Origin: a virus
Reading direction: 5' to 3' (one strand)
Virus record (IMG/VR): IMGVR_UViG_3300031697_000122
Coordinates: 1 to 38,953 of that record
Length of the DNA: 38,953 nt
Position 1 is the first letter of the stretch. The number at the start of each line of letters is the position of its first letter. Both the position numbers and the translations under genes were made by a program. The notes under the pieces are model-generated. The model had not been told where the DNA came from and searched no databases. It saw only the letters and a program-made list of their open reading frames with translations. This document shows, piece after piece, positions 9,733 to 33,540 of this stretch.

Positions 9733-12700
9733 ATGAAAATAAATGAGATAGAAGCGATAAAAATGAAGTTACTCGGCGTCCTAGATGACCCCGAATTCGT
9801 AAATGATTTATTTAGAGAATATAAAGGACGAGAAGGTGAAATTTCTCAGATTATAAATGAATCATTTGAAGAGATTGTTGAGATGTCAAATCCATTTAGA
9901 TATGAAATGGTTAGCCCTGAAACATTCCTAGATGACCCATATTATTGTGGGATAAATCCAGAAAGTGGTGTCGGTGTTTGTGAATCGATATATCCACAAC
10001 TAAGAAAGGATTTCATAAACATACATAGCCCAGATTCAGTTATATCCGAAGTGGTATTAACTGGTTCAATTGGATGGGGAAAATCATTTTTCATGCAACT
10101 TGGAGTATTGTGGCAACTCTACTATCTGGCTTGTCTGAAATATCCCCAGAGATATTACCGATTGGCTCCCAGTACTCCCATAGGTATAATCATTATATCT
10201 GTTACAGAGAGACAAGGTAAAAAGAACATTTTTGCCACTGTTAAAGATATGATACGCATGATACCTTTTTTTCAAGAGAACTTCATGTTTGATGAAAAGA
10301 AAGCAACTGACTCATTAATATTCCCAAATAAGATTGAATTATTTCCAGCATCTTCTTCTCATTCGTCAAATATCGGTCTTCACCTATTTTCTGGCGCAAT
10401 GGATGAAGCAAACTTCTTCAAAAAGATTAAGAATTCTAAGCGTTCTGAAAATGGAACTGGTTTGTTTGATGAAGCGAAAACATTGTATAGAAGCTTGAGA
10501 CGACGACTTGATTCTCGATTTTTGAAAAGGGGTAGACGTCCTGGAATTCTATACTTGGGTTCCTCAAGAGTATATCCAAACGATTTCACAACTGAGCATA
10601 TTGACGAATTAGAATCAGCCATGAGAAAGACAGGAAATAAATCTGCACATATCATGGATTATAACCAGTGGAAAGTAAATCGTGATGCATATTCAAAACA
10701 AGAATTCCGAGTTGAAATTGGTGAACTGAATAGAAGAAGTAGAATTCTGAATGAATTTGAGAAGCCGAAAGGTAAAGTGGTTATCAATGTTCCAATGGAT
10801 TTCTATGACGCATTTGAGAGAGATATTGAGAATGCTATAAGAGATATCGCTGGACTTGGTGTTCATGCTATTCAGCCATTCATCGGTAATAAAGATAAGA
10901 TTATGGAAATGTTTGATGAAGGTCTCCAAAGCATTTTCAGCGTTGAACAAGCAACACTTTCACCGAAATCAGAATTCTTAGTTAGAGAATTCATTCGTAA
11001 GACCTGCACCAATCCAGATGTTCCAAGGTATAGTGGAATGGATATCGGGATAACGAAAGATAGGTTTGGTTTTGCTGTTGGTTATATTGAGGGATATGCC
11101 GATATGAAACGTGAATTATTCAATGACGAAACTCAGAAAATGGAAAGTTATACTGAGAGATTACCAAAAATAGTTGTTGAATTGTTATTGGAAATTGTTC
11201 CAGAGAAAGAATTTGGTGAGGTTGAGATAGCACGAGTCAGGTATCTAATCTTCCAATTGATAAAGAAGCTGTATAGAGTTCGTAGAGCAAGCTGTGATGG
11301 GTTCCAATCAAAGGATATGCAACAACAAATGAAACGAAATGGAATCAATATGGTATATGTTTCCATGGATAGAACGCCAGAGCCATACGAAACATTCAGA
11401 ACAGCATTGTATGAAGGTAGAATTCGTTCCGTATATCATCCAAAACTCGAAATTGAACTCAATGAACTTGAGAGAGATTATAGTAGAAATAAAATTGACC
11501 ATCCACCAACTGGATGTTTCTTGGGTGAAACTAAAATAAAATTACTTAATGGCAAGCATGTAAAAATTAAAGAATTGGTCGGGAAGTCAAATGTTGAGTT
11601 ATATGGTTGTAAATCCGATGGTGAAATAATTCCAACAATTGCTAAAAAGATATGGAAAACTAAAGAAGTTGTAGATTATTTACAAATTACGTTAGATAAT
11701 GGGGAAATTGTAAAATGCACACCAGAACATAAGTTTATGTTGCGTGATGGAACTTATAAAGAAGCTCAATATTTAAGCAATGTAGATTCATTGATGCCTC
11801 TATACTCAAATTATGAGGGGAGTTTTTTAAATGGATATGAAAGATTTCAAAATAATAAAACCAAGAAGCAGGTATTTACACATTCAATGGTTGATAGATA
11901 TTATAATGGTAAGCGAGATTCAGACGATGTAGTGGTTCATCACTATGATATAAACCCAAAGAATAATAGTAGTATAAATCTCAAACGGATGACCAGAGAA
12001 GACCATGCTAGAGTTCACAGTCTATTAAACGAACTCGGAAATAAACCAGAAAATATTGCAAGGCGAGTAAAAACATTAAAACGAAATACTAGAATTCGTG
12101 CTGGTATCGACCCAGATTCAAAATTAGCACCATGGGAAATTCGTTTAAAAGATAGTAAAATGAATCCAGCACAAGTAAGTAAACACTTAACCAAAATTTC
12201 TAGGACATCAAATAGAAGAAAATTGTCAAGGGCGCAAGCAAATAAAGTAAATTCTGGCTATTGGCAAAGCGAAGAGGGTAAACTGCGAAGACAGGAACTA
12301 TCAAAAACGCAATTAAAGGAGGCTCTTGCCAAAAGAATACAGCGAGAAGATGACCGCTGGTTATCCAAATTTGATACATCTTTAGAATATAAAGGTATTG
12401 CTGAAATTTACAAAATTTATGGTGGTGGTAATGTTGCTGTCAAACGTCGACTAAAATCAATTGGTTATATAATCAATATAGGATATAAGCACAATCACAA
12501 GATTGTAAAAATCGAAAAAATCCATTCAAAAACCCCAATCCCAGTTTATGATATAGAAGTTCCAGTGAGTAATAACTTTGCATTATCGGCTGGTATATTC
12601 GTTCACAACTCAAAAGATATGGCTGATGCCGTTGCTTCTATGGTATATAATATGCATGTTGATCCAGTTTATAGCACAAGTGACTTAATGCCGAGTATAA

Positions 12701-12795
12701 TGGGAACTGAGGGCGAAGATGGAGCTACACAACATCATGAATTTAGTGACGACCCAGAAATTGAAGCATTTGAACGAGAAATTCGTGGGATGTAA
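9733..12795 (+). CDS. terL: Terminase large subunit (ATPase/nuclease), intein-containing
   Basis: The packaging motor that cuts concatemeric DNA and pumps it through the portal. The 1020-residue precursor has a 365-residue intein (595-959), leaving 655 residues. The ATPase has Walker A GSIGWGKS (residues 111-118) and a Walker B-like segment ending in D224-E225 (SGAMDEA). The RNase H-like nuclease has its first Asp in SGMDIG (D437) and the last acidic block in SKDMADA, right after the intein. No ribosome binding site precedes the ATG and a promoter sits where its transcript would begin at the ATG, so a leaderless message is likely. No small terminase gene is recognised nearby. The portal follows after 65 nt. 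Confidence 0.95.
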   Translation: MKINEIEAIKMKLLGVLDDPEFVNDLFREYKGREGEISQIINESFEEIVEMSNPFRYEMVSPETFLDDPYYCGINPESGVGVCESIYPQLRKDFINIHSPDSVISEVVLTGSIGWGKSFFMQLGVLWQLYYLACLKYPQRYYRLAPSTPIGIIIISVTERQGKKNIFATVKDMIRMIPFFQENFMFDEKKATDSLIFPNKIELFPASSSHSSNIGLHLFSGAMDEANFFKKIKNSKRSENGTGLFDEAKTLYRSLRRRLDSRFLKRGRRPGILYLGSSRVYPNDFTTEHIDELESAMRKTGNKSAHIMDYNQWKVNRDAYSKQEFRVEIGELNRRSRILNEFEKPKGKVVINVPMDFYDAFERDIENAIRDIAGLGVHAIQPFIGNKDKIMEMFDEGLQSIFSVEQATLSPKSEFLVREFIRKTCTNPDVPRYSGMDIGITKDRFGFAVGYIEGYADMKRELFNDETQKMESYTERLPKIVVELLLEIVPEKEFGEVEIARVRYLIFQLIKKLYRVRRASCDGFQSKDMQQQMKRNGINMVYVSMDRTPEPYETFRTALYEGRIRSVYHPKLEIELNELERDYSRNKIDHPPTGCFLGETKIKLLNGKHVKIKELVGKSNVELYGCKSDGEIIPTIAKKIWKTKEVVDYLQITLDNGEIVKCTPEHKFMLRDGTYKEAQYLSNVDSLMPLYSNYEGSFLNGYERFQNNKTKKQVFTHSMVDRYYNGKRDSDDVVVHHYDINPKNNSSINLKRMTREDHARVHSLLNELGNKPENIARRVKTLKRNTRIRAGIDPDSKLAPWEIRLKDSKMNPAQVSKHLTKISRTSNRRKLSRAQANKVNSGYWQSEEGKLRRQELSKTQLKEALAKRIQREDDRWLSKFDTSLEYKGIAEIYKIYGGGNVAVKRRLKSIGYIINIGYKHNHKIVKIEKIHSKTPIPVYDIEVPVSNNFALSAGIFVHNSKDMADAVASMVYNMHVDPVYSTSDLMPSIMGTEGEDGATQHHEFSDDPEIEAFEREIRGM
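11515..12609 (+). mobile_element. Intein with HNH homing endonuclease in the terminase gene
   Basis: 365 residues. Block A is CFLGETKI (Cys1), block B is CTPEHKFM, and the C-terminal blocks are VYDIEVPVSNNFALSAG and FVHN|S with canonical His-Asn and a Ser +1. The insert carries an HNH motif (VVHHYDINPKNNSS...MTREDHARVH) followed by basic helical regions resembling NUMOD/IENR DNA-binding modules (residues about 250-335). It splits the nuclease block G|SKDMADA, where precise removal restores a conserved terminase site. All splicing residues are intact. Confidence 0.94.
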
Positions 12796-12860: not shown

Positions 12861-14489
12861 ATGAGCATATTAAATAAAATTGCAGGAGTTCTTGGCTACG
12901 AAGAAAAGAAATCCGTTTCAGTAGACGACCCAACGCCACGACCAAGTGACGTTGTATCGGATGAAGATAATTACCCCGAAAGTGCGAAACAGCATGATTA
13001 TTGGGGAACTAAAGTTCAAAAGACATTATATATAGATTCTAGCGATAAACTTCGTTATGAAGAATTTGACAAGATGGATAACGAAATGCCTGAGATTTCT
13101 TCTGCTTTAGATATAAATGCAGATTTCATCATATATCCGAACTCATATGATAAAACAAAAGTATTCAAAGTTAAGAGTACGGATAAAAAAGCTCAAAATA
13201 TTATAGATGAAGTAGATGCAAGAATATCCATGCAAGAACAGCTATATGCTCAAGTTAGAGCTATGTTGAAGTATGGTGATAATGTAGAAGAACTAGTTGT
13301 AGATGTATCAGGAAAACAATTCTTGGGATTTAGAAATATTCCAGTTAGAACTATAGTTCCTGTAATGAATGATGGTTTCCCATCATCAAGCCCATATATG
13401 CTACAACATATTGAAGGTAAAACAATTGCTTCGTTGGATAATGATGAAGTATTTCATTTATCTCTAAACACTGACAGAAAGCGATATTCTGCTCATGGTA
13501 AAGGTGTTTCCATGATAGAGAAAAGTAGATTGTCTTATAGACAGATTCTACTTATGGAAGAAGGAATGATGATTTCCAGACTTTCAAGAGCTAATCAGAA
13601 TTATGCCATGATTGTTGATGTTGGTGAACTACAAGGCGTTGAAGCATTAAACTTCTTGGATAAATATAAATCAAGAGTTATGCGCCGTAAATATATCGAT
13701 AATCAGACAGGTAGATGGAAATGGAAATATAACCCACTTTCAGTTATCGAAGATATCATGGTTCCAACAAGAGCAGGTTCAGGTGGTAACGTAATTCCAT
13801 TGAATAATAACTCTGCAGTTGGTAAAAACATTGAAGATGTAATGTATTATCAGGATAAATTCATTTATTCAACTGGAACACCTAAGCTATTAATCGGTAA
13901 AGAATTAGACATTAATGCTAAGAGTACGTCAGATGTTCAAATGAGTACTTTCCTCAGAAGAATTAGAAGATTTCAAACTATCATTTCCCCACCAATTAAA
14001 TTGCTATATAAGCACATTTTAAAGATTGAGGGAATGAATGTTGACCTAGCATCACTCAATATTGAATGGGCTTCTAACTCAACAATAGACCAAGAGCGAA
14101 TATACATCATTGAGAAACTTAAAGCCGAAGTTGCAAAAATATTAAAGGTTGATTTGAAAGTAGTTGATGATATTTATATTTATACAACTCTAATGGGTAT
14201 GAGCGAAGATGAAGCCAAAGCAATGAAGCTTAGAATGGATGATGTAAGGGAAGATGAAGCTGATAAAGCCCTTGATATGGCAAACTCACTTAACACAATC
14301 AATCCAAATGATAAGGATGAAGAGAAGCCTCCAACAAAGGAAGAATCAATCGCAATCATTAAAGAGAAGTTAACTGAAAGTGAATTTGCTGAATGGGAAA
14401 AGATGAACGAAATCGTTGAGAATAACCCAGTCATCGGCAAAATGATGTTTGAATTGATAGAATTATCTCAGGCGAAAATCGGAGAATAA
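12861..14489 (+). CDS. Portal protein, T4 gp20 type
   Basis: 542 residues; forms the dodecameric ring at the special vertex through which DNA passes. The order and sequence character fit T4 gp20-like portals: an N-terminal region ending in LRYEEFDKMDNEMPEISSAL, a central beta-rich wing (NIPVRTIVPVMNDG), a segment with SYRQILLMEEGMMISRLSRA, and RRKYIDNQTGRWKWKYNP. Further on come GGNVIPLNNN and a DDVMYYQDKF-like stretch (EDVMYYQDKF), then the clip/stem region TGTPKLLIGKELDINAKS. The tail (about 460-542) is acidic and helical. AGGATG precedes the ATG. It lies directly between terminase and the minor head protein, the canonical position. Confidence 0.9.
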   Translation: MSILNKIAGVLGYEEKKSVSVDDPTPRPSDVVSDEDNYPESAKQHDYWGTKVQKTLYIDSSDKLRYEEFDKMDNEMPEISSALDINADFIIYPNSYDKTKVFKVKSTDKKAQNIIDEVDARISMQEQLYAQVRAMLKYGDNVEELVVDVSGKQFLGFRNIPVRTIVPVMNDGFPSSSPYMLQHIEGKTIASLDNDEVFHLSLNTDRKRYSAHGKGVSMIEKSRLSYRQILLMEEGMMISRLSRANQNYAMIVDVGELQGVEALNFLDKYKSRVMRRKYIDNQTGRWKWKYNPLSVIEDIMVPTRAGSGGNVIPLNNNSAVGKNIEDVMYYQDKFIYSTGTPKLLIGKELDINAKSTSDVQMSTFLRRIRRFQTIISPPIKLLYKHILKIEGMNVDLASLNIEWASNSTIDQERIYIIEKLKAEVAKILKVDLKVVDDIYIYTTLMGMSEDEAKAMKLRMDDVREDEADKALDMANSLNTINPNDKDEEKPPTKEESIAIIKEKLTESEFAEWEKMNEIVENNPVIGKMMFELIELSQAKIGE

Positions 14490-17075: not shown

Positions 17076-18239
17076 ATGAAAGTAACATTTACAGAACGAA
17101 ATGACATGCTTATGGACAAGTATGGACATCTTCTTGACGAAGCCAAACATTTCAGCGGAAGCCAAATGTTGAACGAGTTAGAAGAGAACAAAATGGCTGT
17201 CTTAATTGACAATGCTGTTCAAGGTGCTTGTAGAAAGTATGGACAAGACTACAATGAATTCACATTGAGAAGTCTTGATGAAGCAACGACAAAGCAAACA
17301 GACACAGGCGATATCGCCTATACTGTGAAGCTTCAACTTGCAATGATTGGTCAAATCTATCCTAATATGATTTCCAGAGAATTCGTTTCTCTACAGCCAA
17401 TCACTCAACCAAACTATAAAATCTTTTATAACGATTTTAAACGTTCGGATGGAACATCACTTTCCTCAGATATTCACGCAAGACGTGAATATGCAAACAA
17501 TGTTGAGTATGACCCAACATCACCAACAGATATCCAGACAGTTGACATGGAAGTTACATCGGAAGATGTTGCGGCCACAACTAAAAAGCTCAAGGGTAAT
17601 GTAACTATAGAAGTTGAACAAGATTTACTTGCATATCATGGTATGAATGCAATGAGCCTTGTGACATCTAATATGGGTGCTGAACTAACTCGTGAGTGGG
17701 ATAGAACAATCATAGCTGATTTATTCTCTCTAGCTTCTGGTGGTACTGCATATTTCAATAAGAAACAACCTGTTGGAATTTCTTACGAAGAGCGCAAATT
17801 CTGGATGGAAACATTCTATGAATCAATCCTCGACGTTGATAACATGATTTTCAAAGCACGTTATCGTAGAACAAACTTCCTAATCGTTTCTGCTGATGAA
17901 GCTACATTCATGGCAAAAATGAAAGGTTTTGAAGCTTCGAACATCGCTTCTGATGCTCAAATAATCAAAACTGGTGGACGTTATTTCGCTGGAACACTCG
18001 CTAATCGTTGGAGAGTATACGTAGACCCATTCATCACAGGCGAAATGCTTGTTGGTTACAATGGTGCTGGTAACTGGTCTGAGACTGGTTATGTTTTCTC
18101 CCCTTACGAAATGGCTTATCTCACTGATGCTTTCACTAATCCTGATACATTAGTTAAGACAAGAGCTATTATGTCAAGAGCGGCCAGAAAATGTGTTATC
18201 CCTGGACTTTATGGTAAGGTTATCATAACTAATTCATAA
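17076..18239 (+). CDS. Major capsid protein, T4 gp23 type
   Basis: 387 residues; the building block of the icosahedral shell. The sequence follows the gp23/HK97-fold layout: an N-terminal helical delta-like region (1-60), QLAMIGQIYPNMISREFVSLQPI, a long loop with FKRSDGTSLS, a P-domain helix region (WDRTIIADLFSLASGG), YRRTNFLIVSADEATFM, RVYVDPFITGEMLVGY and the family's C-terminal end TRAIMSRAARKCVIPGLYGKV. AAGGAG lies 10 nt before the ATG. It follows the protease/scaffold gene and is followed by a strong terminator, consistent with a highly expressed unit. It is shorter than T4 gp23 (521), lacking room for the insertion domain. LxE-type cleavage sites in the N-terminus (LLDE, MLNE) are possible gp21-like targets, not proven. 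Confidence 0.9.
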   Translation: MKVTFTERNDMLMDKYGHLLDEAKHFSGSQMLNELEENKMAVLIDNAVQGACRKYGQDYNEFTLRSLDEATTKQTDTGDIAYTVKLQLAMIGQIYPNMISREFVSLQPITQPNYKIFYNDFKRSDGTSLSSDIHARREYANNVEYDPTSPTDIQTVDMEVTSEDVAATTKKLKGNVTIEVEQDLLAYHGMNAMSLVTSNMGAELTREWDRTIIADLFSLASGGTAYFNKKQPVGISYEERKFWMETFYESILDVDNMIFKARYRRTNFLIVSADEATFMAKMKGFEASNIASDAQIIKTGGRYFAGTLANRWRVYVDPFITGEMLVGYNGAGNWSETGYVFSPYEMAYLTDAFTNPDTLVKTRAIMSRAARKCVIPGLYGKVIITNS

Positions 18240-21397: not shown

Positions 21398-22029
21398 TGA
21401 TAACAAGAGAATTCATAGATGAAAATGAGAGGATTATAGATACAATCCTTGATACAACATTAACTCTTTTAGATGATGTAGCAAAATTGATAACTAATTT
21501 GAATGATGAACACATGACTGAAAAATTAAAAGCATTTGCAACTGAAATCATTCAAGAAGAGTATGAAATCAATCATTATATAGAAGAAATTATCGATGCT
21601 TGGGTACTCACACTCAAAGAAAGTGATGATGGTGTAATAGGCTTCGATATAGAAAATCATGTAAGTGGTGCAATCGAAACTGAGTGGCATAGTTCAAAAA
21701 CTAGCAATTCATGGTCATATGCACTACAGGATTATTTAAAAGTGATAGATGAAGGTAGGTCATCGTATAGTATACCACAAAGCCCAAAGGGTGAGGTATT
21801 GTCAATCGGTAGTCAGGGCGGTGCTGGTGGCTTCCCATACAATCATCAAAAAGGTTCTAAGCCTATAACAATGCCAGCCAAAGATGGAACTAATGTAAAA
21901 AATAGAATAAAGCATAGAATTCAGGAATATATTGATAGCTTATTTGAAGGAATCCCAGAAATGGTTGGTGAAGTATTTAGTAATGACAGCCTCATTAAAT
22001 CACGAATGGCACAATTCTACCAAGGATAA
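21397..22029 (+). CDS. Putative head-tail joining / neck protein
   Basis: 210 residues; the ATG shares bases with the previous stop (TGATG), so translation is coupled. The N-terminal half is acidic and helical. The middle has WHSSKTSNSWSYALQDYLKV and a Gly/Pro-rich loop (SIPQSPKGEVLSIGSQGGAG), followed by a basic helical C-terminus (VKNRIKHRIQEYIDSLFEG). The location and size match HK97 gp10-type head-tail joining proteins, but no motif proves it. Confidence 0.45.
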   Translation: MITREFIDENERIIDTILDTTLTLLDDVAKLITNLNDEHMTEKLKAFATEIIQEEYEINHYIEEIIDAWVLTLKESDDGVIGFDIENHVSGAIETEWHSSKTSNSWSYALQDYLKVIDEGRSSYSIPQSPKGEVLSIGSQGGAGGFPYNHQKGSKPITMPAKDGTNVKNRIKHRIQEYIDSLFEGIPEMVGEVFSNDSLIKSRMAQFYQG

Positions 22030-22035
22030 AATATA

Positions 22036-22512
22036 ATGGAAGATTCAAAAAAAGAAAAGATTCTCAAACAAATTGAAGTAGTTATCAAGAATATCAAGAC
22101 TACAACCATGGCACATGATAGTACATACTATGCAAATACCGTTGGTTATGTGGATAGACAGTATAACAATATCACATTAGAAGAGGTTAAACAACACCCT
22201 ACGAACTGGGTTGTGATAAATAATCTCGGTGAGAAGCACAAAGCATTAGTTGGTGGTCAGTTTGAAAATAGAATTAATATTCAAATCATTGGCTTTGTTA
22301 GAGTTATTAACAATGGCGAAAACCTTGACACGCTAATGAACTCCTTGCAAAAAGATATAATGCTTGCTATGCTTAATGACGTGGGACTAGGTGGTTTGTG
22401 CAGTTATCTAGTTCCTACTGTGACGAGAACTGTTGATAAGATGATATATCCGTATGGTGGATTTGCAATGCATATTGATTGCGTGTATGTCACCTTCGGA
22501 AAAGACATTTAA
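22036..22512 (+). CDS. Putative tail terminator protein
   Basis: 158 residues. The N-terminal helix is followed by PTNWVVINNLGEKHK, RINIQIIGFVRV, a helix (NLDTLMNSLQKDIMLAML) and strands ending GGFAMHIDCVYVTFGKD. This helix-strand order, with a late strand after a long helix carrying a D-I-x-x-A-M-L pattern, is like gpU-type/gp17-type tail terminator proteins that cap the tube. AAGGA lies 9 nt before the ATG. It is directly before the tail tube gene, the usual place. Confidence 0.5.
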   Translation: MEDSKKEKILKQIEVVIKNIKTTTMAHDSTYYANTVGYVDRQYNNITLEEVKQHPTNWVVINNLGEKHKALVGGQFENRINIQIIGFVRVINNGENLDTLMNSLQKDIMLAMLNDVGLGGLCSYLVPTVTRTVDKMIYPYGGFAMHIDCVYVTFGKDI

Positions 22513-22526
22513 TAAGGAGAAAAATT

Positions 22527-23528
22527 ATGCGAGCTACAGGTTCACAATCTTCCATAAAATTCGTTCAAGAAAAAACATGGAAAGAAGTTGTTGTTAAAGC
22601 TGATATGGCTGAAGTTTATGGTTTAAACGTTCGTTCATGTAATCTTGGTGGAAAGAAAGGTCAATTTCAGTCTGAAACTATCAACCAGTATAGAGCGATT
22701 GTCGGTCTTGGTGATGGTAATAAAGCTGTTGATGGTAATATCGTAACTGATTTCTTACCAGAAGGACTCGAAGTTCCATTAAGACATTTATTGGGTAAAG
22801 GAACTATAGCCACAAGTGGTACTGGCCCTTATACACACACATTAAAAGGTTCTGCTGATTCTATGCAGGGTTTAATGATACAGAAAGCTTTCACGAATGT
22901 TGACGAATATTTTATTTATACAGGTAATCGTATTAATAGCATGGCTATTAACATCATTCAAGAAGGTTTCCATGATGTAACATGGGATATGATTGGTTCT
23001 ACCGAAACTATCTCAGCAACTGACCAAATGCCAGTTAATGCTGACGATGACCCACCAGTTTATCCTACTAAGTCTGGTTTCACTGGTTATGACTGTGTTG
23101 TATCCACTGACCATGCTACACCAGGAACTTTCGTTGCTATAAGTAACGTAACTGATGGTAACATCAACATTAGTAATAGTGTTGAAACTGATGGTTATGT
23201 TCTTGGCTCTGACGAAAGAGCATCTGCTGAACTCGGAATGCGTGAATGTTCTGGTGCTTTCAAAATGTTCTTTAGTGATTCTACATTATATGCTCTATTT
23301 AATAGTGGTATTGAGTGTGGTTTACGCTTCACATTTGACAATGAAACAGACTCCATTACATTTGAATTTCCAAAAGTGAAAATCCAAGGTGACTCACCTG
23401 CGATTGAATCCGCTTCTGGTGTTAATCTCAATCTAACTTTCAAAGCTAGATATGATACAACAACTTCAACGGATGTTACAGTTACTATTGTAAATAGTAC
23501 TGCGACAATTGACGAAGAACCAACATAG
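22527..23528 (+). CDS. Tail tube (major tail) protein
   Basis: 333 residues; builds the tail tube around the tape measure. Beta-rich, Gly/Ser/Thr-rich, with RATGSQSSIKFVQEKTWK at the start and the tail-tube style segments GLEVPLRHLLGKG and NSMAINIIQEGFHDVTWDMIGSTE. Later come NVTDGNINISNSVETDGYVLGS and ERASAELGMRECSGAFKMFF, and a C-terminal beta region (VNLNLTFKARYD...). AAGGAG lies 8 nt before the ATG; an upstream in-frame extension overlaps the terminator gene and is rejected. It precedes the chaperone pair and the tape measure, as expected. Confidence 0.8.
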   Translation: MRATGSQSSIKFVQEKTWKEVVVKADMAEVYGLNVRSCNLGGKKGQFQSETINQYRAIVGLGDGNKAVDGNIVTDFLPEGLEVPLRHLLGKGTIATSGTGPYTHTLKGSADSMQGLMIQKAFTNVDEYFIYTGNRINSMAINIIQEGFHDVTWDMIGSTETISATDQMPVNADDDPPVYPTKSGFTGYDCVVSTDHATPGTFVAISNVTDGNINISNSVETDGYVLGSDERASAELGMRECSGAFKMFFSDSTLYALFNSGIECGLRFTFDNETDSITFEFPKVKIQGDSPAIESASGVNLNLTFKARYDTTTSTDVTVTIVNSTATIDEEPT

Positions 23529-23561
23529 AATCAAATTTAATTATTTGAGACTTGTTTTAAT

Positions 23562-23602
23562 ATAGGTACATGTGTTACTATTTTAGTGGCACCTGTGCCT
23601 AT
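23562..23602 (+). terminator. Strong hairpin between tail tube and chaperone genes
   Basis: ATAGGTACA and TGTGCCTAT (9 bp, one G-U) enclose GTGTTACT / AGTGGCAC (8 bp, two G-U) with a single T/C mismatch and a 5-nt loop: about 17 pairs. Then TTTATATTAAGGGG, a weak T-run merging with the ribosome site of the next gene. A partial terminator or mRNA-stabilising hairpin after the abundant tube message. Confidence 0.65.
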
Positions 23603-23626
23603 TTTATATTAAGGGGAATTTTTATA

Positions 23627-24070
23627 ATGTTAAAAATTGCAAATATTATTGCGAAGACTGTTCCATCTGCTTTTGTTAAGTACGACGAAGACTTTGGTGT
23701 CGAATTCGACTTACTCTTCATTCAAAAAGAAGAATTGAACAAAATCACTGGTCAATTTACAAAGATGAAATTCAATCCAAAGACTCATCAAAAAGATGAA
23801 GTTATTGATTCAGACGGATTGAGAAATCGAATCTGTGAAAAATGTGTTAAGGGTTGGAAAGGTGTTACCCCTCGTTGGTTAGCAACTATGTTCCCAATAG
23901 ACAAAGAAGAAGTTGAAGATATGGAAGAAGAAATTGAATTCTCCCAAGAAAATCTAACAACTATCATAGAAAAAGCTTATGGGCTTGATGGTTGGATTTT
24001 TGAAAACGTAAGAAATGGTGCAAATTTCAATCGTTCTCAAGAACACAAAGATGAACAAATAAAAAACTAA
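23627..24070 (+). CDS. Tail assembly chaperone, short form (gpG-like)
   Basis: 147 residues. Binds tape measure protein and tube subunits during tail assembly and is not part of the final virion in lambda-like systems. It begins MLKIANIIAKTVPSAFVKY and ends RSQEHKDEQIKN. The central FDLLFIQKEELNKITGQF and VKGWKGVTPRWLATMF resemble gpG-type chaperones. AGGGG lies 10 nt before the ATG. The last sense codons form a slippery heptamer directly before TAA, and the -1 frame is open beyond it, making a longer product. Confidence 0.8.
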   Translation: MLKIANIIAKTVPSAFVKYDEDFGVEFDLLFIQKEELNKITGQFTKMKFNPKTHQKDEVIDSDGLRNRICEKCVKGWKGVTPRWLATMFPIDKEEVEDMEEEIEFSQENLTTIIEKAYGLDGWIFENVRNGANFNRSQEHKDEQIKN

Positions 24071-24453
24071 AACTCTTTGCGGAGTGGCAATTTCGAGCCA
24101 ACTCTGCATCATGCGAAGACTGCATGAATCATTACCAGAGGATAAAGAAGTGTGATCCACCTTGTTTTGAAAATGGGATATGTGAATTCGGGAAGCCCGA
24201 TTTATGGGTATCCAATCATTATGCTTGGGAGCTATGGCAGAAATGTTCATCGCAGGTTATAGTGGCTGGAATGGGTGACGTTCTAGGTATAAAATTTGAG
24301 GCAATCGCTTTCATTTTTGACCTTTACGAAATCTATGAACCAGAAGAAAGACAATTTTACTTTGAAAAAATCCTAATTATTGATATAATTAGATTGAAGA
24401 GTAAAAGTTCTGGTGGAACGATTACCAATAATAAGGGTAGAAAATCTAAATAG
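23627..24453 (+). CDS. Tail assembly chaperone, -1 frameshift product (gpGT-like)
   Basis: A fraction of ribosomes should slip back one base on A AAA AAC (24061-24067) and read on from CTA at 24067, adding 128 residues (LKLFAEWQFRANSASCEDC...) to the 147 of the short form, about 275 in all. The extension has four Cys in two groups (C-x-x-C and C-D-P-P-C), followed by helices (SNHYAWELWQKCSSQ) and a basic C-terminus. The only ATG in the extension (24124) has no ribosome site, and the reading frame is open from the heptamer onward. Order, size and the slip site match lambda G/GT. Confidence 0.85.
24061..24107 (+). promoter_or_regulatory. Programmed -1 ribosomal frameshift signal
   Basis: Slippery heptamer A AAA AAC in the correct phase (…ATA AAA AAC TAA). 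Eleven nt downstream, GCGGAGTGGC (24079-24088) pairs with GCCAACTCTGC (24097-24107): ten pairs with one G-U and one bulged A around an 8-nt loop, a suitable pausing stem-loop. Confidence 0.88.
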
Positions 24454-24462
24454 AAACGAATA

Positions 24463-24509
24463 AATGACAATATACCGATTGGAAACGATTTGTATATTGT
24501 CATTTTTTT
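24463..24509 (+). terminator. Rho-independent terminator before the tape measure gene
   Basis: Perfect 12-bp stem AATGACAATATA / TATATTGTCATT with an 18-nt loop and seven T. It starts 10 nt after the chaperone extension stop. The GGAG of the tape measure begins 2 nt past the T-run, and no promoter is seen between them. Confidence 0.85.
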
Positions 24510-24522
24510 ATGGAGCGATACT

Positions 24523-27500
24523 ATGGCTATAAATAATCTGAATAAGTTACTTACAGATATTAACAAGATTCGTGAGAATACTTTAGATTTAAAGAAAGTA
24601 AACGATGAAATGCGTAATACTCTCGAAAAGAACACTAAAGCCACTAATGATTATGGTAAAAGTGTTGATAAAGTCAGTCGCTCCGTTGAAGAGCTTGAGG
24701 CAATTGAAGCAAGGCGTTCAGCAAGAGCAGAAGAGCGAAGAGCCAAACGACAAAAACAAATAGATGATAACGAAAAACAGATAGCCACTATTAAGCGACT
24801 TGAGGGTGCTAATAAGTCAATGGCTGACCAATTGGCTTCACTTTCAAGCAAGATGAATTCGTTTAAAAGTCAAACTGCACAAGTAACTCAAGGTGTAGGT
24901 TCTGGTGCTGTTTCATCCAAAGCCGAAATCACTTCTCTTACAAATGCATTAAAAGGATTTGCAAGCACAATCAAAACTGCTGGAAATGGTTCTACTAATG
25001 CAACTACAAAGATTGTAAATGACGCAAAGAAGATTAAGAGTGGAATGGAGAGTGCTTTCTTCGGTAGCCAAAAAGCCAGAGGTAAAAGCTCTATAGCTAG
25101 TTTCTTCAAAGAACAATTCCAAGGTGTAAGCACAGCAATCACAAAAGAGGTTGCTAATGTTCAGGCAAGTGGTTTTAAGCTCGGTCAGGGCGTTGTTGCA
25201 GGAATATCAACTGGAATATCCAGCGGAGCAGGAAACGCCACCATAGGCAAAGCCCTGGCGAAGCAATTGGGTAAAATTGTTGACCAACAAACACAAGAAG
25301 CATATAAAGCTCTTTCAAAAATCATTAAAGGTTGGGATAACCTATTAGATAGTGATAAAATTGAAAAGATTTCAGAAGTTGCTGGTGATATAAAAGAGAA
25401 GCTTGCAACAATAAAAGATATTAAGTTGATTGATACAACTTCAACATTTGGAACGCCAGATAAAAAGAAATCCACCATGAAAGAGTATGATGGTAGATTG
25501 AAAAATATTAAAAATTTCAATAAAGAAGTTATAAAGTTGGCAGGTTCATTGAATACAGAACTTACCACAAAACAAAAATCAAGCATTAAACAAATAGCAA
25601 GCCTTGAGTCCAGAGCATCCAAGGCTATGCTGAAATCGGTTGCAAATGGTAATCCAGAACAGGGAATGGATAAGGTTAAATTTTTTCAAAAGCAAGCCAA
25701 AGAAATTCAAACCTCCATGAAGCGTTCTGTTTCGGTTATGAACATGAATGTAAAAGCTCAGAAGGATGCCACTAACACAGAAATCGACCAACAAAAAATT
25801 AAGAATACTGTTTGGATGAACTCTTTAAAGAATCGTGAAGATTTTTATAAGAAGAATATTAAAGTTGTTGAAAGTGGCGAAACCCAACTAAGACAAATCC
25901 AGGGCAAATTCACTTCTAAAGAGTTGGCTCCAGGTGGACTTAGCAAAGGTAAGCTGGGATTTACCGCTTCTGGTGCTAGTGAGCAAGAATTGGTTAAGAT
26001 AATGGCACGTATGAATTCAACTATGCGTAAAACCGCTTCTGACCAAACAATAAGCCTTACTGACATGACAAAGAGCTTTAAATCATATACCACAAACTAC
26101 GAAGTTTATAGTATGCGTTTAATCACTATGATGAATGAGCGACAAGCCAGAGAGAAAGCTTCCAGTATTGCCTTTAAAGAAGAACTTAAATCTCGCAAAA
26201 ATGCAGTTAAGAATATTGGTTCTCCTTTAAGCTTTTTAAGTGAAACTGAAAATATCATTAAGGATAATGCAAAGATAGCAAAACAGGATTTTGAAAAGCG
26301 ACTTGTAAATGCGAAAGAATATTATTCTGAGTATATGAAGAATGAAGAAACATTTCAAGAAAATTTGAGACAACTTAGTGGTAAATGGACTGAGAAAGAA
26401 TTATATAGTAAGAAAGAAAGTACTAGAGCCATAAGTGGCGATATTAGCATTGAAGCAGAAGTCAAACAGTTGAAAAAGATGCAAGACCTTCTCAATGATG
26501 CCAGAACCAATGCACAGAAGTCACAAGCAGATATCGCTGGTGGTGGAAATGGGGAAATGTATATAAAACAGGCTATGGAAGCTCAGAAAGCATATGTCAT
26601 CGAAAAAGATGTAATGGAAAAATTGATTTATGGTCGACTTAATGTAAAGCGAAAAGAAGATAAAATCATAAAAGATGCAGAACTTAAAGATAAAGCTAGT
26701 ATGGCTACAAAAATCTCTATTGCAATGAAAGTGAATAAAGCAAAAGAGAAGTTGATGCGTGATGAAAAATCATATCAAACTAAGATGGATAATGATGCAA
26801 TTGCTTCTGCTAAACTTACAAAAAACGCCAAAATAAAATCTGCACAAGAAACTTCAAAAGCTCTTTCTAAATTGGGTGAAAGTATAGGCTTCGGTTATAG
26901 AAACAGAAACCTATTTGAATCGGCTTCCCAGAGTGCCTACGCCATTAGAAGATTTGGACACGATATGGGAATGGGGTTACAGGCTGTCATAAAGAAAATG
27001 ATGGTTCTAACAGCAATGTTTACAGCATTTGCCGTAGCAGTATCCGCTACTGCCGTTGTAGCATCTAAGAAATTCTTAGATTTCGGTGAAAGTATTATAA
27101 AAGCAACTGAAAGTATTAGGGGTTATCGTATCGCTTTATATGGTATGATGCAATCTCAGGCTGGTGTCAACGAATTGATTGCCACAGCTACCAAAGTTAC
27201 CGCCGACTTACCAATTGGTTTCCAACAGGTTCAAGAATCTCTCAAGGGATTAGTTTTAATCGCCCCAGTTAGAGATATGTTGAAAAATGCTGATGATGTA
27301 GAAGCGACAATGGGAAGACTTTATAAAATCGTCATAGGTTTGGCGCAAATTCAACCTGAGTGGGGAGCCAAGGGTGCTATATTCTCTTTGAGAAACGCAT
27401 TGACTGGTGACTTACGCTCATTACAAAGAAGATTTGAGATACCAGTTAGAGCAATTTATTCTGATGAAGGTGTTTCTCTTCAAGATTTACAATATCAACC

Positions 27501-30500
27501 TGAAAAGATGGTTGAGACATTATCTAAATATATCTCTACATTTTATAACTCAGAAACCTTGAGTATGCAGAATGCTCAGTTTGGAGCAGTGTTAGAGAAG
27601 TTGAAAGGTGTATGGGTAAACTTCCTATCATCTATCGGTGAGTCTGGGTTCTACGATATATTTGTAAAACAATTTATTGATGTGAGAAATGTTTTGCAGG
27701 ATTTTGAAAAAACATCTGGCTTCAAAACCCTTGCAAAAAGTATAAGTAACTCAATGTCAACAATCCTTATATCTGTGAAAACAGTTCTTTCATATATTGG
27801 TGGAAACATCATGAAGAATGTATTTGGTATTGATGAAAAGTCAAACAAGGCTGATGTAGTTAGCAAAATGTTTGAAACTACAGCAAAGACAATTAAAGCA
27901 TTGTCGGCGATGATACAAGATGATTCAACCAGAACATACATAAAAGATACTGGTACAGCAATGTATGAGTCAATCATCAATCCAATAAAAGAATTTGCTA
28001 GAATTTCTTATTCCATGTTCAAAGATGTTAAGGCTGGTATTGAATATATATCAAATGCTCTACAGGCAATGGGTAAAGATTCCACTTTTGGTGATGTAGC
28101 CAAAAAAGGATTGTTGTGGACTATGATAATCGGCCCTGGAAACGTAGCAATGATAGGGGCTAGTGCTGGTATATTATTTGCAAACGTTCTTGGAATGTTC
28201 GTAAATACTGTTAAAGTAATGATTGCGTTGATGGGATTCCTCAAAACAACTTGGTTGGGAGTTTGGTTAGCTCCATTTGCTAAGATTGCTCTTGCGTTTG
28301 GCGGAGTTGTTGCCTTGGTGAAAGGACTTCAATTTGCATTAATTAATCCTGAGGAAACGAAAGAAACCATTAGAGATATTGCGGATTTTCTAGTAATTAC
28401 ATTAGGAATTGCCTTCTCGAACATAGCCAAACAAATGGCAAAGTTGGCATTATTAATTGCAAGTAAAATTCCATTTTTGAATAGTTTTTTACCAAAAAGT
28501 GAATATGCTGGTAATACAGGCATATCATACAAACAGGCAGAAATATCCAGACTTGAGGCAGGGCATCGTAATATAAATATTCCTTCTGACGGAGACCCAT
28601 ATGGAATGCCTCGTAATTTGGTAAATCCTAATCAAAAGCAGATTGATAGGCTCAGAGCAGAAATAGAAGCAATACAGAATGACAAGTCACAGATTAGTGA
28701 TATTGATAAAGTGTTAAATGTATCATTGATGACAGAAATGTATGCAGGTTGGTCAACGAATGCGATTGGAAAACAACTGGTAATTAAGGGTGGTTATATT
28801 GAAAAGGGTATTGGCTGGGTATCATCACTTGTCGGCGGTCTAAGTAATTTATTGACAGATACAGATAAAGAGCTTGAAAAATTAGTTGTTCCAATAACTG
28901 ATACAAAAACTGGTAAATCTGTAGTTGCAGATATAAAGAATTTGACAGACTCAACCAAAAATTCTGCAATGCCTATGTTCAAAGCGATACAAGAACTTAA
29001 TGGGATTGGTGTACAAATCACATCAGCATTCCGTAAAGGTGATAGTGGAACTCATGGTAAAGGATATTCAATAGATTCACAAATCCTTTCAAATGGTGGA
29101 GTTGCTGATGGTAGTACTGGATTAGGCTATAATGCATATAAACAATCCATATCCAAAATGGTAGAGCATGGCGGTATTAAAAAAATCATAATGGAATCTG
29201 CTAATGGTAAGAAGATGAATGAAACGATAGCAGAAAAATTGAACAAGGAATTTAAAGATACTGATATATCTTATAAACAAGTTGCAGGACAGAAAAATCC
29301 TGTAATGCATACTGAATTTATTCAAAAAGGTGTAGATGCAATCAAAACTGACATCGGGGCAGTTGCACAAAATTTATATAAGAATTTTACAAATACTTTA
29401 AATAATACTGAGATTGATGTATTCAGCGGTATCAATGAAGTTGCTGGTTCAGAACCAGGAAAACAATTAATACATGCACTTGATGGTATGCATGGAGCAA
29501 CTAATAAGTTATCAAAAGGTATAAAACTTAGAGCTTCTAGTATGGTTGGTATGGTCACAGCCACATTCGAACAATTTAAAAAAGATAACGGACAAATGTT
29601 CGGCCCTTCTGCGTTAAAGGAAATGGAAGCATCTTTCAATAAATATGAAGAAAGTAAACGGGCAATTCTTAACAAAATTGACATGAAGAGTGAATTGTCT
29701 AATGAAGGTGTCAAAATTGCATACGAAGAATTTCTAAAAAATATGTTTATGTTTGGTGGAGAAGAATATAGTGAAAAAGATAAATTCGCAAACTTCGCAA
29801 TCCAAAAATCAAAGATGAAAACTGCTTCGATGGGTGTTGGTGTAAGTCAATACTCTGATGTAAATTCGGTATTACCTATGATGGGTATGCTTGGAATGAT
29901 GACAGCCTCTCAAAACTCTGCTAGAACTTCTCAAAGCGTAGTATATGATGGTGCTGATATATCCAAACAGAACTTACTTTCATTACAATTGATGGAAAAT
30001 GTAAGTGCTACCTTATTACAAACTCAAATATTGAAAAAAGAATTCGAATTCTTATCTGTTCCAGCGGATATATTGGCAAGTAATTGGCAGACTGAATTCA
30101 ATGATAAGGCATTGGTTGAAAGCGTGAGAATGGCACATATCTTAAATGCAGATTTCACAGCAAATAAAGAAACTATGGATAGAGCATTTAAAAACGTTCA
30201 GAAGTTGCGACTAGAGGGCATGGGCTTAGACGATGCCATTGATGCAACTAAAAAGAATTATGTTAATGATAAAGATGTTGATAGGGTTCATGAAATCCTT
30301 GAATCAACAAGAGAAAGATTCCATTATATTCAAAAAGAATATGGGGTATTGGCTAAGACTAGAAAGTTGGATGCAAAGAAATTAACAGATTTGAAAAAAT
30401 ATAATGCGGTTCAACTTCTTGCAAATAAATCAAAGTATTTGGGTAGCAAAAATAAAGCTGTTAGAACTGGCTATTCTCAAGAATTCAGCGGTTTAGTTGC

Positions 30501-33500
30501 CGAAGGTGAAATTACAGATGCAAACGTAATCGTACAATCATCTATAGAAAATGCAGTTGCTGAATGGGATAATTTTGGAACAATCATCGAAACTTCTACA
30601 AAAGAAACTGTTAATAATATGAGTAGTGCTTTTGAAACTGGTTTCTTCGATATCATGACAGGTAAAATCAAAGGTCTTGGTGAAATGTTTAGTAGTATCG
30701 GTCAATCAATCATTGGTAGTATTGCAAAAATCATTTCTAAGATGCTTGCAATGTCGGCTACGAAGATGATATTCGGCATAGATATGAATGGTTCATCGGG
30801 TGGTTCTGCTGGTGGCTTGTTGGGTGGTCTATTCAGTATGTTTACTGGTGGCTCATCTGGTGGAGGCTTTGGAAGTTCAGCTATAGGAGCATTGAGTGGC
30901 TTATTAGACCCAGGAAATTCTACAACTCGTGGTGGTGGAATTGGTGCAATGTTGGCTAATGTAGTTGGAGCTTCTTCTGGTGCTGGCGGAGGCTTATTAA
31001 GTGGTATCCTAACAACTGGTGGAACCGCTGGTGCTGGTCTAATGGCCGGTGGAGCAGGAGCAGGAATACTTTCAAGCCTTATCGGTAGCACAGTTTCTAG
31101 CACATTGGCAAGTAAGGGCGTTATGGCCGCAATCAACGCAGGAGCAAGTCATGGAGCGATTGCGGCAAGTGCATTAAAGTTCTTAGCAAATCCAGCAACT
31201 TTAATAGCTGGTGGGGTGGCCGCATTTATAACACAGCCAGGACGATGGTTAGGTGGTTCTGTAGATAAAACTCAACCAGCTAGAGCCGCACAAGCGTCTT
31301 GGAATGATCAACGAAGTGAAATGATGAATAGACGAACTATAGATACATTGGATTATTACATGGGCGATACTGCATCTATTGAGGGCGCACAAATGGGTGG
31401 AATTGGACTTACAACTTGGAAGTCTGGTGCTAAATATGGTTATGATATGTGGAATGGCCCTTCCGAAACTCATGCATCTGCCGACCCAAGCGCATATCTA
31501 GCGAGTCTTGAAGGTTATTACAAGTTACTTATGTTGGCTGGCGAAAGTCATTATGAAAATGTAAAGAAGCTTAATAAACAGGGTGAAACTAACCAATTTA
31601 AATCATTACAAATGCAACTTGCATTCGACAGCAAAAAAATGACTATAATACAAGCTGAATATGCTAGATTTGCTTCTCCGAAATACACTGGTGCAGATAA
31701 GCGTGATAAGATGGATGAATGGAGAGATGCAGAACTAGAAGCAGAATACGCAAATTGGCAATTACAGGAAGAAGTTCTCAAGATGGAGAAAGAAACCGCT
31801 TATGCCAAAATGAATTATGAAACTTGGGTTGCTAGTATGGGGCAAAATCAAGTGGCAATCGCTACAACTGCAATATCTATAGAGAAAGAAAGAATGGCGA
31901 AGTTGGATGCAAATTCTTTGGAATGGTATGAAGCTAAAATGAGCTTAATGCAGAATGAAATTTCTCTTGCAAATACTTTAAAGGCAAATGCAAATGAAGC
32001 AAAGAATACATTAGCAAATACATTCCTATCCCTAGCTAAGATGGGTCAAACTGGAATGGTTAGTACTGGAATGGGATTGGCAAGAATGCCTAGATTATTA
32101 AATCCAAATGCTGATGGGCGTTATGGCGTTATGGCTCCAGTTAAAAAGAATGTAGATTTGATAAAAGGTCTTAAAGACGGAAATCTTGATATGTCACAAG
32201 TTGCTCATATAGTCGGTGCAAAGAAAACTGGAATGGGTGGTAGTGGTATATTTGACACACATATAAATCGTGAAAATGTTTGGGAAAGATCACAGAATTG
32301 GTTTGGTGGAGCATCTTCTAGTAATATTCAAAAGCGAATTGAGCAAATTCAATCCAGTGGTGGAAAGAACGTTGTTTATAATCGTGGGAAGATTGAATGG
32401 GATACCGAAGTTGAAAGATTGGTACAAACTTGGGATATGACAATTGAAGATGCTATCACTGAGCTAACTGAAGATATGAATAGATATATTGGTGATTATT
32501 CATTGACATTGGAAACTACACAAATTGGCGAAAGTACAAGAAATTTATTGAATAATATCGATAGCTCAATTGGCGATAAATTTGATATATTGACACAGAC
32601 ATACAGAAACCTTGAAATAGGTCGTGCATCTGGTTTCATTGATAATAATGAATTCATTACTGCTATGAAGGAAACTGATAGAGATATGGCTTCTTTCGTC
32701 AATGGATTGGCAGGAAACATCAATCAGGTTATCAAAAGCGGTTATATAAGCTTAAATGATGGGTATATTGCCAATTTCAATGCTAGTGTTGCTAGTGGAA
32801 ATACTGGTGATATTGAAAATTCATTTGATGCAATCATAAAGGCTGGAAATAAAGGCAGAACTAAAGAAGGAATGCTTGATTATTTCAAAGGTGATGACGA
32901 TTTCTCCAATATGAATAGTGTATTGGCTGGTGACGACATGAAGGATATTCGTGAAATCATGGACTTGAGCCAAACCAAAGAAAAATATAATGCATTTGTT
33001 GGATATAAAGACTTTGAATATTGGCAACGAAAGGCTGGTTCTGGTACGGGAGAAAGTTGGGGAGAAAGTTGGGAACTTAAAACTATTTCATATCCACAAT
33101 ATGAAGAAAGAACACGCCTAGTAGACCCAATAAATGACCTTAGTAATACATATGACAGTCCTTGGGAATTATATTATGAAACTAAGAAAGCAACTATAAT
33201 GAACAAGTTGAATAGTGCAGAAGATGAAAGTGCTGAATGGTTTGATGCACAATCAGAATTCTTTGCTCTAATGACTGAAAATATGGAACATGCCAAGGAA
33301 AAGGCTGAGAAGTTACAAGATGATTTGAATGGTATGTTTGGCAAAATCGAAGAAACTATGCGAATGCGAATTGCAGAAGAGAAAGAAACTGCTAAGGGTG
33401 ATGTATATTACTTTGATGTTGGCGAAACAAGAGATTCAAAAGTTATGCTTGACAAAATGCTTGAAGCGGTTAAGACTAATGACCCAGATGCTCAAAAATT

Positions 33501-33540
33501 AATTGATGCATTTAGAAAGAAAATGATGGGGATTAAATAA
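24523..33540 (+). CDS. Tail tape measure protein with M15-like peptidase domain
   Basis: 3005 residues; sets tail length and is ejected into the cell during infection. GGAG lies 7 nt before the ATG. Residues 1-800 are mainly charged coiled coil. Next come a hydrophobic segment (about 825-852, VLTAMFTAFAVAVSATAVV), a TMP core (GVNELIATATKVTADLPIGF) and a second hydrophobic block (about 1195-1270). A peptidase-like domain follows at about 1490-1600 with GTHGKGYSID (H1511, D1518) and MHTEF (H1596), the ligand pattern of M15 zinc DD-peptidases. A Gly-rich membrane-like region lies at about 2090-2240, followed by further coiled coil. At roughly 1.5 angstrom per residue the tail would be some 400-450 nm, less if the enzyme domain does not count. 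It is flanked by chaperone and distal tail genes, as usual. Confidence 0.95.
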   Translation: MAINNLNKLLTDINKIRENTLDLKKVNDEMRNTLEKNTKATNDYGKSVDKVSRSVEELEAIEARRSARAEERRAKRQKQIDDNEKQIATIKRLEGANKSMADQLASLSSKMNSFKSQTAQVTQGVGSGAVSSKAEITSLTNALKGFASTIKTAGNGSTNATTKIVNDAKKIKSGMESAFFGSQKARGKSSIASFFKEQFQGVSTAITKEVANVQASGFKLGQGVVAGISTGISSGAGNATIGKALAKQLGKIVDQQTQEAYKALSKIIKGWDNLLDSDKIEKISEVAGDIKEKLATIKDIKLIDTTSTFGTPDKKKSTMKEYDGRLKNIKNFNKEVIKLAGSLNTELTTKQKSSIKQIASLESRASKAMLKSVANGNPEQGMDKVKFFQKQAKEIQTSMKRSVSVMNMNVKAQKDATNTEIDQQKIKNTVWMNSLKNREDFYKKNIKVVESGETQLRQIQGKFTSKELAPGGLSKGKLGFTASGASEQELVKIMARMNSTMRKTASDQTISLTDMTKSFKSYTTNYEVYSMRLITMMNERQAREKASSIAFKEELKSRKNAVKNIGSPLSFLSETENIIKDNAKIAKQDFEKRLVNAKEYYSEYMKNEETFQENLRQLSGKWTEKELYSKKESTRAISGDISIEAEVKQLKKMQDLLNDARTNAQKSQADIAGGGNGEMYIKQAMEAQKAYVIEKDVMEKLIYGRLNVKRKEDKIIKDAELKDKASMATKISIAMKVNKAKEKLMRDEKSYQTKMDNDAIASAKLTKNAKIKSAQETSKALSKLGESIGFGYRNRNLFESASQSAYAIRRFGHDMGMGLQAVIKKMMVLTAMFTAFAVAVSATAVVASKKFLDFGESIIKATESIRGYRIALYGMMQSQAGVNELIATATKVTADLPIGFQQVQESLKGLVLIAPVRDMLKNADDVEATMGRLYKIVIGLAQIQPEWGAKGAIFSLRNALTGDLRSLQRRFEIPVRAIYSDEGVSLQDLQYQPEKMVETLSKYISTFYNSETLSMQNAQFGAVLEKLKGVWVNFLSSIGESGFYDIFVKQFIDVRNVLQDFEKTSGFKTLAKSISNSMSTILISVKTVLSYIGGNIMKNVFGIDEKSNKADVVSKMFETTAKTIKALSAMIQDDSTRTYIKDTGTAMYESIINPIKEFARISYSMFKDVKAGIEYISNALQAMGKDSTFGDVAKKGLLWTMIIGPGNVAMIGASAGILFANVLGMFVNTVKVMIALMGFLKTTWLGVWLAPFAKIALAFGGVVALVKGLQFALINPEETKETIRDIADFLVITLGIAFSNIAKQMAKLALLIASKIPFLNSFLPKSEYAGNTGISYKQAEISRLEAGHRNINIPSDGDPYGMPRNLVNPNQKQIDRLRAEIEAIQNDKSQISDIDKVLNVSLMTEMYAGWSTNAIGKQLVIKGGYIEKGIGWVSSLVGGLSNLLTDTDKELEKLVVPITDTKTGKSVVADIKNLTDSTKNSAMPMFKAIQELNGIGVQITSAFRKGDSGTHGKGYSIDSQILSNGGVADGSTGLGYNAYKQSISKMVEHGGIKKIIMESANGKKMNETIAEKLNKEFKDTDISYKQVAGQKNPVMHTEFIQKGVDAIKTDIGAVAQNLYKNFTNTLNNTEIDVFSGINEVAGSEPGKQLIHALDGMHGATNKLSKGIKLRASSMVGMVTATFEQFKKDNGQMFGPSALKEMEASFNKYEESKRAILNKIDMKSELSNEGVKIAYEEFLKNMFMFGGEEYSEKDKFANFAIQKSKMKTASMGVGVSQYSDVNSVLPMMGMLGMMTASQNSARTSQSVVYDGADISKQNLLSLQLMENVSATLLQTQILKKEFEFLSVPADILASNWQTEFNDKALVESVRMAHILNADFTANKETMDRAFKNVQKLRLEGMGLDDAIDATKKNYVNDKDVDRVHEILESTRERFHYIQKEYGVLAKTRKLDAKKLTDLKKYNAVQLLANKSKYLGSKNKAVRTGYSQEFSGLVAEGEITDANVIVQSSIENAVAEWDNFGTIIETSTKETVNNMSSAFETGFFDIMTGKIKGLGEMFSSIGQSIIGSIAKIISKMLAMSATKMIFGIDMNGSSGGSAGGLLGGLFSMFTGGSSGGGFGSSAIGALSGLLDPGNSTTRGGGIGAMLANVVGASSGAGGGLLSGILTTGGTAGAGLMAGGAGAGILSSLIGSTVSSTLASKGVMAAINAGASHGAIAASALKFLANPATLIAGGVAAFITQPGRWLGGSVDKTQPARAAQASWNDQRSEMMNRRTIDTLDYYMGDTASIEGAQMGGIGLTTWKSGAKYGYDMWNGPSETHASADPSAYLASLEGYYKLLMLAGESHYENVKKLNKQGETNQFKSLQMQLAFDSKKMTIIQAEYARFASPKYTGADKRDKMDEWRDAELEAEYANWQLQEEVLKMEKETAYAKMNYETWVASMGQNQVAIATTAISIEKERMAKLDANSLEWYEAKMSLMQNEISLANTLKANANEAKNTLANTFLSLAKMGQTGMVSTGMGLARMPRLLNPNADGRYGVMAPVKKNVDLIKGLKDGNLDMSQVAHIVGAKKTGMGGSGIFDTHINRENVWERSQNWFGGASSSNIQKRIEQIQSSGGKNVVYNRGKIEWDTEVERLVQTWDMTIEDAITELTEDMNRYIGDYSLTLETTQIGESTRNLLNNIDSSIGDKFDILTQTYRNLEIGRASGFIDNNEFITAMKETDRDMASFVNGLAGNINQVIKSGYISLNDGYIANFNASVASGNTGDIENSFDAIIKAGNKGRTKEGMLDYFKGDDDFSNMNSVLAGDDMKDIREIMDLSQTKEKYNAFVGYKDFEYWQRKAGSGTGESWGESWELKTISYPQYEERTRLVDPINDLSNTYDSPWELYYETKKATIMNKLNSAEDESAEWFDAQSEFFALMTENMEHAKEKAEKLQDDLNGMFGKIEETMRMRIAEEKETAKGDVYYFDVGETRDSKVMLDKMLEAVKTNDPDAQKLIDAFRKKMMGIK

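Follow-up and report, generated by a model that had tools for sequence, protein, structure and literature searches.

A conserved A_AAA_AAC heptamer flush with a tail chaperone stop codon points to G/GT-type frameshifting in uncultured phages

The virus studied here very probably carries a −1 programmed frameshift cassette of the G/GT type that serves long-tailed phages, as judged from its sequence and that of its relatives. We analysed one strand of viral environmental DNA (IMG/VR record IMGVR_UViG_3300031697_000122, positions 1–38,953; hereafter the window) and describe the anatomy and conservation of the candidate shift site, the lack of an independent start for the downstream frame, the purifying selection acting on that frame, and the homology and synteny of the genes involved. 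The −1 extension additionally contains four invariant cysteines, a possible zinc site.

A two-frame chaperone locus

Genes G and T overlap, in that order. A tail-tube gene precedes them and a tape-measure-sized open reading frame (ORF) follows, taken as the tape measure from its length and place. The features considered below are:

22527–23528, plus strand: tail tube protein gene (Phage_tube_2; Pfam PF18906, E = 5e-33), the equivalent of lambda V
23627–24070, plus strand: gene G, encoding a tail assembly chaperone of 147 aa in the zero frame (PHROG 313 match and relatives)
24061–24067, plus strand: slippery heptamer A_AAA_AAC, invariant in all clade relatives
24067–24453, plus strand: T extension, DUF1799-type, in the −1 frame and apparently reached only by a shift (profile matches and relatives' starts)
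24068–24070, plus strand: stop codon of the zero frame, directly abutting the heptamer; a TAA throughout the clade and a TGA in phages MACPNOA1 and IMEAB3
24078–24108, plus strand: predicted stimulatory stem-loop of 11 pairs with one bulged A (folding and synonymous recodings)
24109–24127, plus strand: second predicted hairpin, directly adjacent to the first stem (folding)
24112–24183, plus strand: part of T with four invariant cysteines, C17, C20, C34 and C40 of the extension (alignment)
24523–33540, plus strand: very long ORF (roughly 3,000 aa) occupying the tape-measure place, corresponding to lambda H (position and length)

Gene G begins with an ATG at 23627, with a Shine–Dalgarno-like AAGGGG 10 nt upstream. 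Its product matches the PHROG 313 profile 'Tail assembly chaperone' (E = 1.7e-6) and has a homologue in Vibrio phage D51 (26% identity). A fold search of the PDB with a structural model of G gave no significant match; the XkdN-like YqbN (3klu) ranked second at E = 1.4, which is no evidence for that fold. The AlphaFold model of T was too poor for a fold search (pLDDT 52), PDB sequence searches with G and T profiles found no matches, and a nucleotide search using the G/T cassette gave matches at chance level only. Profile searches of PHROG and Pfam with the N-terminal 1159 aa of the long ORF likewise gave no meaningful family match.

The T extension matches PHROG 680 (E = 3e-5) and Pfam DUF1799 (PF08809; E = 0.0017), the latter at 19.0 bits for the window and 16–23 bits for its clade relatives, against a cut-off of 26. 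A sequence from an Acidobacteria MAG, L017, gives a 98%-probability alignment with the T profile and itself passes the DUF1799 cut-off with 34.7 bits, and the chain of sequence similarity from the window through L017 to DUF1799 appears firm.

Elsewhere in the window, the portal (12861–14489) and major capsid (17076–18239) genes are T4-like (Portal_T4, E = 1e-27; Gp23, E = 3e-41). A T4-type head thus accompanies an apparent siphovirus tail (tube, G, GT and long tape measure), and no sheath gene was seen. By eye, the translations of a ribonucleotide reductase-like ORF (3527–6412, minus strand) and a terminase-like ORF (9733–12795, plus strand) each show an apparent intein-like insertion.

The slip site and its conservation

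The 3′ end of gene G reads ATA AAA AAC TAA, so that A_AAA_AAC comprises the last two sense codons and the A before them. The sequence-only reading had placed the heptamer in the right phase, with the zero-frame stop directly after it and the −1 frame open to 24453; all of this holds, the heptamer lying in the phase of the G frame at 24061–24067 and the TAA at 24068–24070. Translated from 24064, the −1 frame encodes 129 aa beginning KLKLFAEW. This arrangement is unique in the window. Across 28 window genes we scanned for X_XXY_YYZ heptamers phased to the gene frame (Y = A or T; Z not G) and found 33, 32 of which meet a −1 stop within 47 codons; the heptamer at 24061–24067 alone gives access to a long −1 frame, of 130 codons, and alone touches its gene's stop.

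Searches of IMG/VR and genome contigs with G and T recovered near-identical copies (L002–L005) and five diverged lineages (L006, L009, L010, L015 and L034); L016, whose junction is identical to that of L009, was counted with it as one lineage. Across the four diverged lineages aligned, identity to the window is 45–58% in G and 48–60% in the T extension. Comparison of the site in relatives, which the sequence-only reading had suggested, found TAAAAAACTAA at the G/T junction identical in all five diverged lineages. A tblastn search of isolate phages with T gave no match, and no DUF1799 turned up among some 300 genomes surveyed from the phylum to which the Bacteroidetes-MAG relative belongs. Window positions 22022–24534 are 99.8% identical to IMGVR_UViG_3300005917_000022, falling to only 78–85% before 21863; comparison with L002 and L005 places a mosaic border at 21863–22022.

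The two-frame layout is repeated in these five independent lineages and in the isolate phages Loki, IMEAB3 and MACPNOA1, which excludes an assembly error and leaves a sequencing indel, or the decay of a single fused gene, with a practically negligible probability, prone as A-runs are to single-base errors.

The downstream frame lacks a start of its own

In the window, the −1 frame extends only two codons 5′ of the heptamer; there and in L006, L009 and L010 it opens 1–9 codons 5′ of the heptamer without a start codon, and in L034 it opens 28 codons 5′. The first ATG, GTG or TTG of the T frame is at codon 21 in the window, 35 in L006 and 46 in L009; L010 has no such codon among its first 60, and in L034 none precedes codon 66. 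The residues are nevertheless conserved from the slip site on (KLxxFAEWxF..N...CxxC in the alignment). Between the window and L006, the T frame has a pS of about 1.0 (saturated) and a pN of 0.24, a pattern that is inverted in both other frames. Purifying selection thus acts on the −1 frame from the slip site onward, and a protein that is conserved but has no separate start must be reached by a shift at the heptamer or immediately 5′ of it.

These observations bear directly on the possibility that G and T are separate proteins, with T made from an internal ATG at 24124 or by ribosomes that re-initiate once past the G stop. That ATG is present in frame, but it has no Shine–Dalgarno-like sequence upstream (GCATCATGCGAAGACTGC-ATG) and is not conserved, the first T-frame start of relatives lying 35 to 66 codons in or being absent; moreover, the codons 5′ of it are conserved as protein. 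We therefore reject an independent start at 24124 and consider separate translation very unlikely. The G/GT-type fusion proposed in the sequence-only reading is supported by gene identity, synteny, heptamer conservation and the lack of a usable T start in relatives.

A variable predicted RNA structure downstream

The predicted stem at 24078–24108 starts after a spacer of 10–11 nt from the heptamer, with its loop at 24089–24096 and the bulged A at 24100. It corresponds, minus its outer U–A pair, to the ten-pair stem noted earlier 11 nt downstream of the heptamer. A stretch of 63 nt folds with a minimum free energy of −24.6 kcal/mol, which a comparison with dinucleotide shuffles places at z = −4.4. 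When a 60-nt T-frame stretch was compared with 1,000 synonymous recodings (z = −4.5), none was as stable, so the structure in the window is not a by-product of amino-acid sequence or codon usage. No Rfam family matched in the window.

Among relatives, the recoding test was significant in L021 and marginal in L006 and MACPNOA1 (L011), and downstream folding was no better than that of synonymous recodings in L009, L010, L015 and L017. A clear 9-bp stem is predicted in L034, with no shuffles behind this one. The arm GCGGAGU pairs with ACUCUGC in the window and with AUUCCGC in L006; in L034, the partner of GCGGAG is a CUCCGC several bases closer. The constant element is the heptamer. The stem, a variable helper, is strong in the window and weaker or indistinct in some relatives.

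The stem also bears on transcriptional slippage, by which the polymerase could slip on the A-run and yield a fused mRNA. A-runs permit such slippage, which has been reported on longer runs of A8 or more (PMC3711429), but here the run has only six A and ends in an invariant C, a feature of ribosomal heptamers. The significant stem in the window argues further against it, as does T_TTT_TTC at the equivalent place in Pseudomonas phages (compare PMC4378225), and we regard transcriptional slippage as very unlikely. Ribosomal −1 frameshifting accordingly remains our preferred reading.

Comparison with known shift sites

Phage lambda has the gene order V-G-T-H, which the window matches, and its slippery heptamer is G_GGA_AAG. 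Like lambda, the window combines the order tail tube–G–T–tape measure with a −1 shift and a fusion chaperone (PMC5009743); unlike lambda, it has a different heptamer and a shift site flush with the stop. The comparison with lambda covers gene order and the type of shift.

AAAAAAC directly 5′ of a chaperone stop has been published for the Acinetobacter phages Loki and IMEAB3 (PMC5313236). We checked both sites in sequence: the heptamer is flush with TAA in Loki (gp12/gp13; LN890663), as in the window, and with TGA in IMEAB3 (KF811200). In both, as in the window, the −1 frame T follows right after the heptamer, between the major tail protein and the tape measure, and Loki has a stem 8 nt downstream. 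Unlike that of the window, however, their T is Phage_TAC_18, not DUF1799, and has no Cys cluster. The earlier expectation that gene finders would miss the fusion is fair for most relatives, but Loki's record annotates the join.

Microcystis phage MACPNOA1 (ARB07005/ARB07006; KY697807) has AAAAAAC flush with TGA, a DUF1799-like T only 23% identical to that of the window, and a strong stem 3–5 nt downstream; the frameshift is unannotated in its record. Its ARB07004 (L011:2962–3951), labelled 'site-specific recombinase XerD', is a homologue of the tail tube by tblastn (E = 3e-11) and position, and the label is probably a misannotation.

In the Acidobacteria MAG phylum of L017 (L017/L020 and L021–L026), A_AAA_AAC opens the DUF1799 frame in four of six distinct sequences (L017 and L021–L023) and G_GGA_AAA opens it in L024–L026 (L024 and L025 among the six). 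Prophage-like elements of this phylum therefore likely use G/GT shifts too. The T frames of these sequences lack the four-Cys insert. In Vibrio phage D51 (L007:3992–4790), of which D254 and D260 are near-identical matches, the annotated downstream tail chaperone is offset by +1 (or −2) relative to G; the G/T junction has no phased −1 heptamer and the shift type seems different there.

A four-cysteine insert in T

The four cysteines sit 3′ of the slip site, ahead of the DUF1799 domain. They are invariant in five aligned clade members, spaced CxxC-x13-C-x5 or x8-C, and L034 has all four, spaced as in the window. Such a cluster is absent from the T extensions of L017, L021–L023, Loki and the Pseudomonas and Salmonella phages L012–L014. 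The two Cys clusters that the sequence-only reading had called unusual for the family are thus real, clade-invariant and absent elsewhere in a small sample, with the exception of MACPNOA1, whose T has a differently spaced cluster (CxxC-x5-CxxC). We tentatively suggest that the module could be a zinc site carried only by the rare GT, perhaps docking the tail tube or tape measure; literature on tail chaperones was searched for zinc and yielded no report.

Proposed mechanism and implications

From these sequence features we infer the slippage itself, its rate and the roles of the products in assembly. Most ribosomes would terminate at 24068 and release G. In a minority, the tRNA-Lys and tRNA-Asn paired to A_AAA_AAC would re-pair one base back on AAA_AAA, aided by the downstream stem, and these ribosomes would read through the −1 frame to make GT. 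Chaperone genes of HK97-like phages gave 6–7% in reporter tests (PMC3711429), and A_AAA_AAC is among the g-t shift sites listed for halovirus HCTV-2 (PMC5009743). In E. coli it is less shifty than A_AAA_AAG (PMC5009743), which may not reflect the host of this phage. On the lambda model, the tape measure would receive a coat of G and of the G moiety of GT, the T moiety would recruit tail-tube subunits, and both proteins would be absent from the virion.

Wide conservation of the G/GT shift across long-tailed phages has been described (Xu et al. 2004, cited in PMC5009743) and AAAAAAC before the stop is already published, so the window's site adds to a known family, of which it is a real but ordinary member whose only unusual touch is the four conserved cysteines. 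To that family it contributes a well-supported, conserved A_AAA_AAC flush with the stop, in uncultured phages with T4-like head genes. It also corrects a gene call, in that T belongs in the annotation as an extension fused to G, and the four-Cys insert, confined to the frameshifted form, offers a small testable lead.
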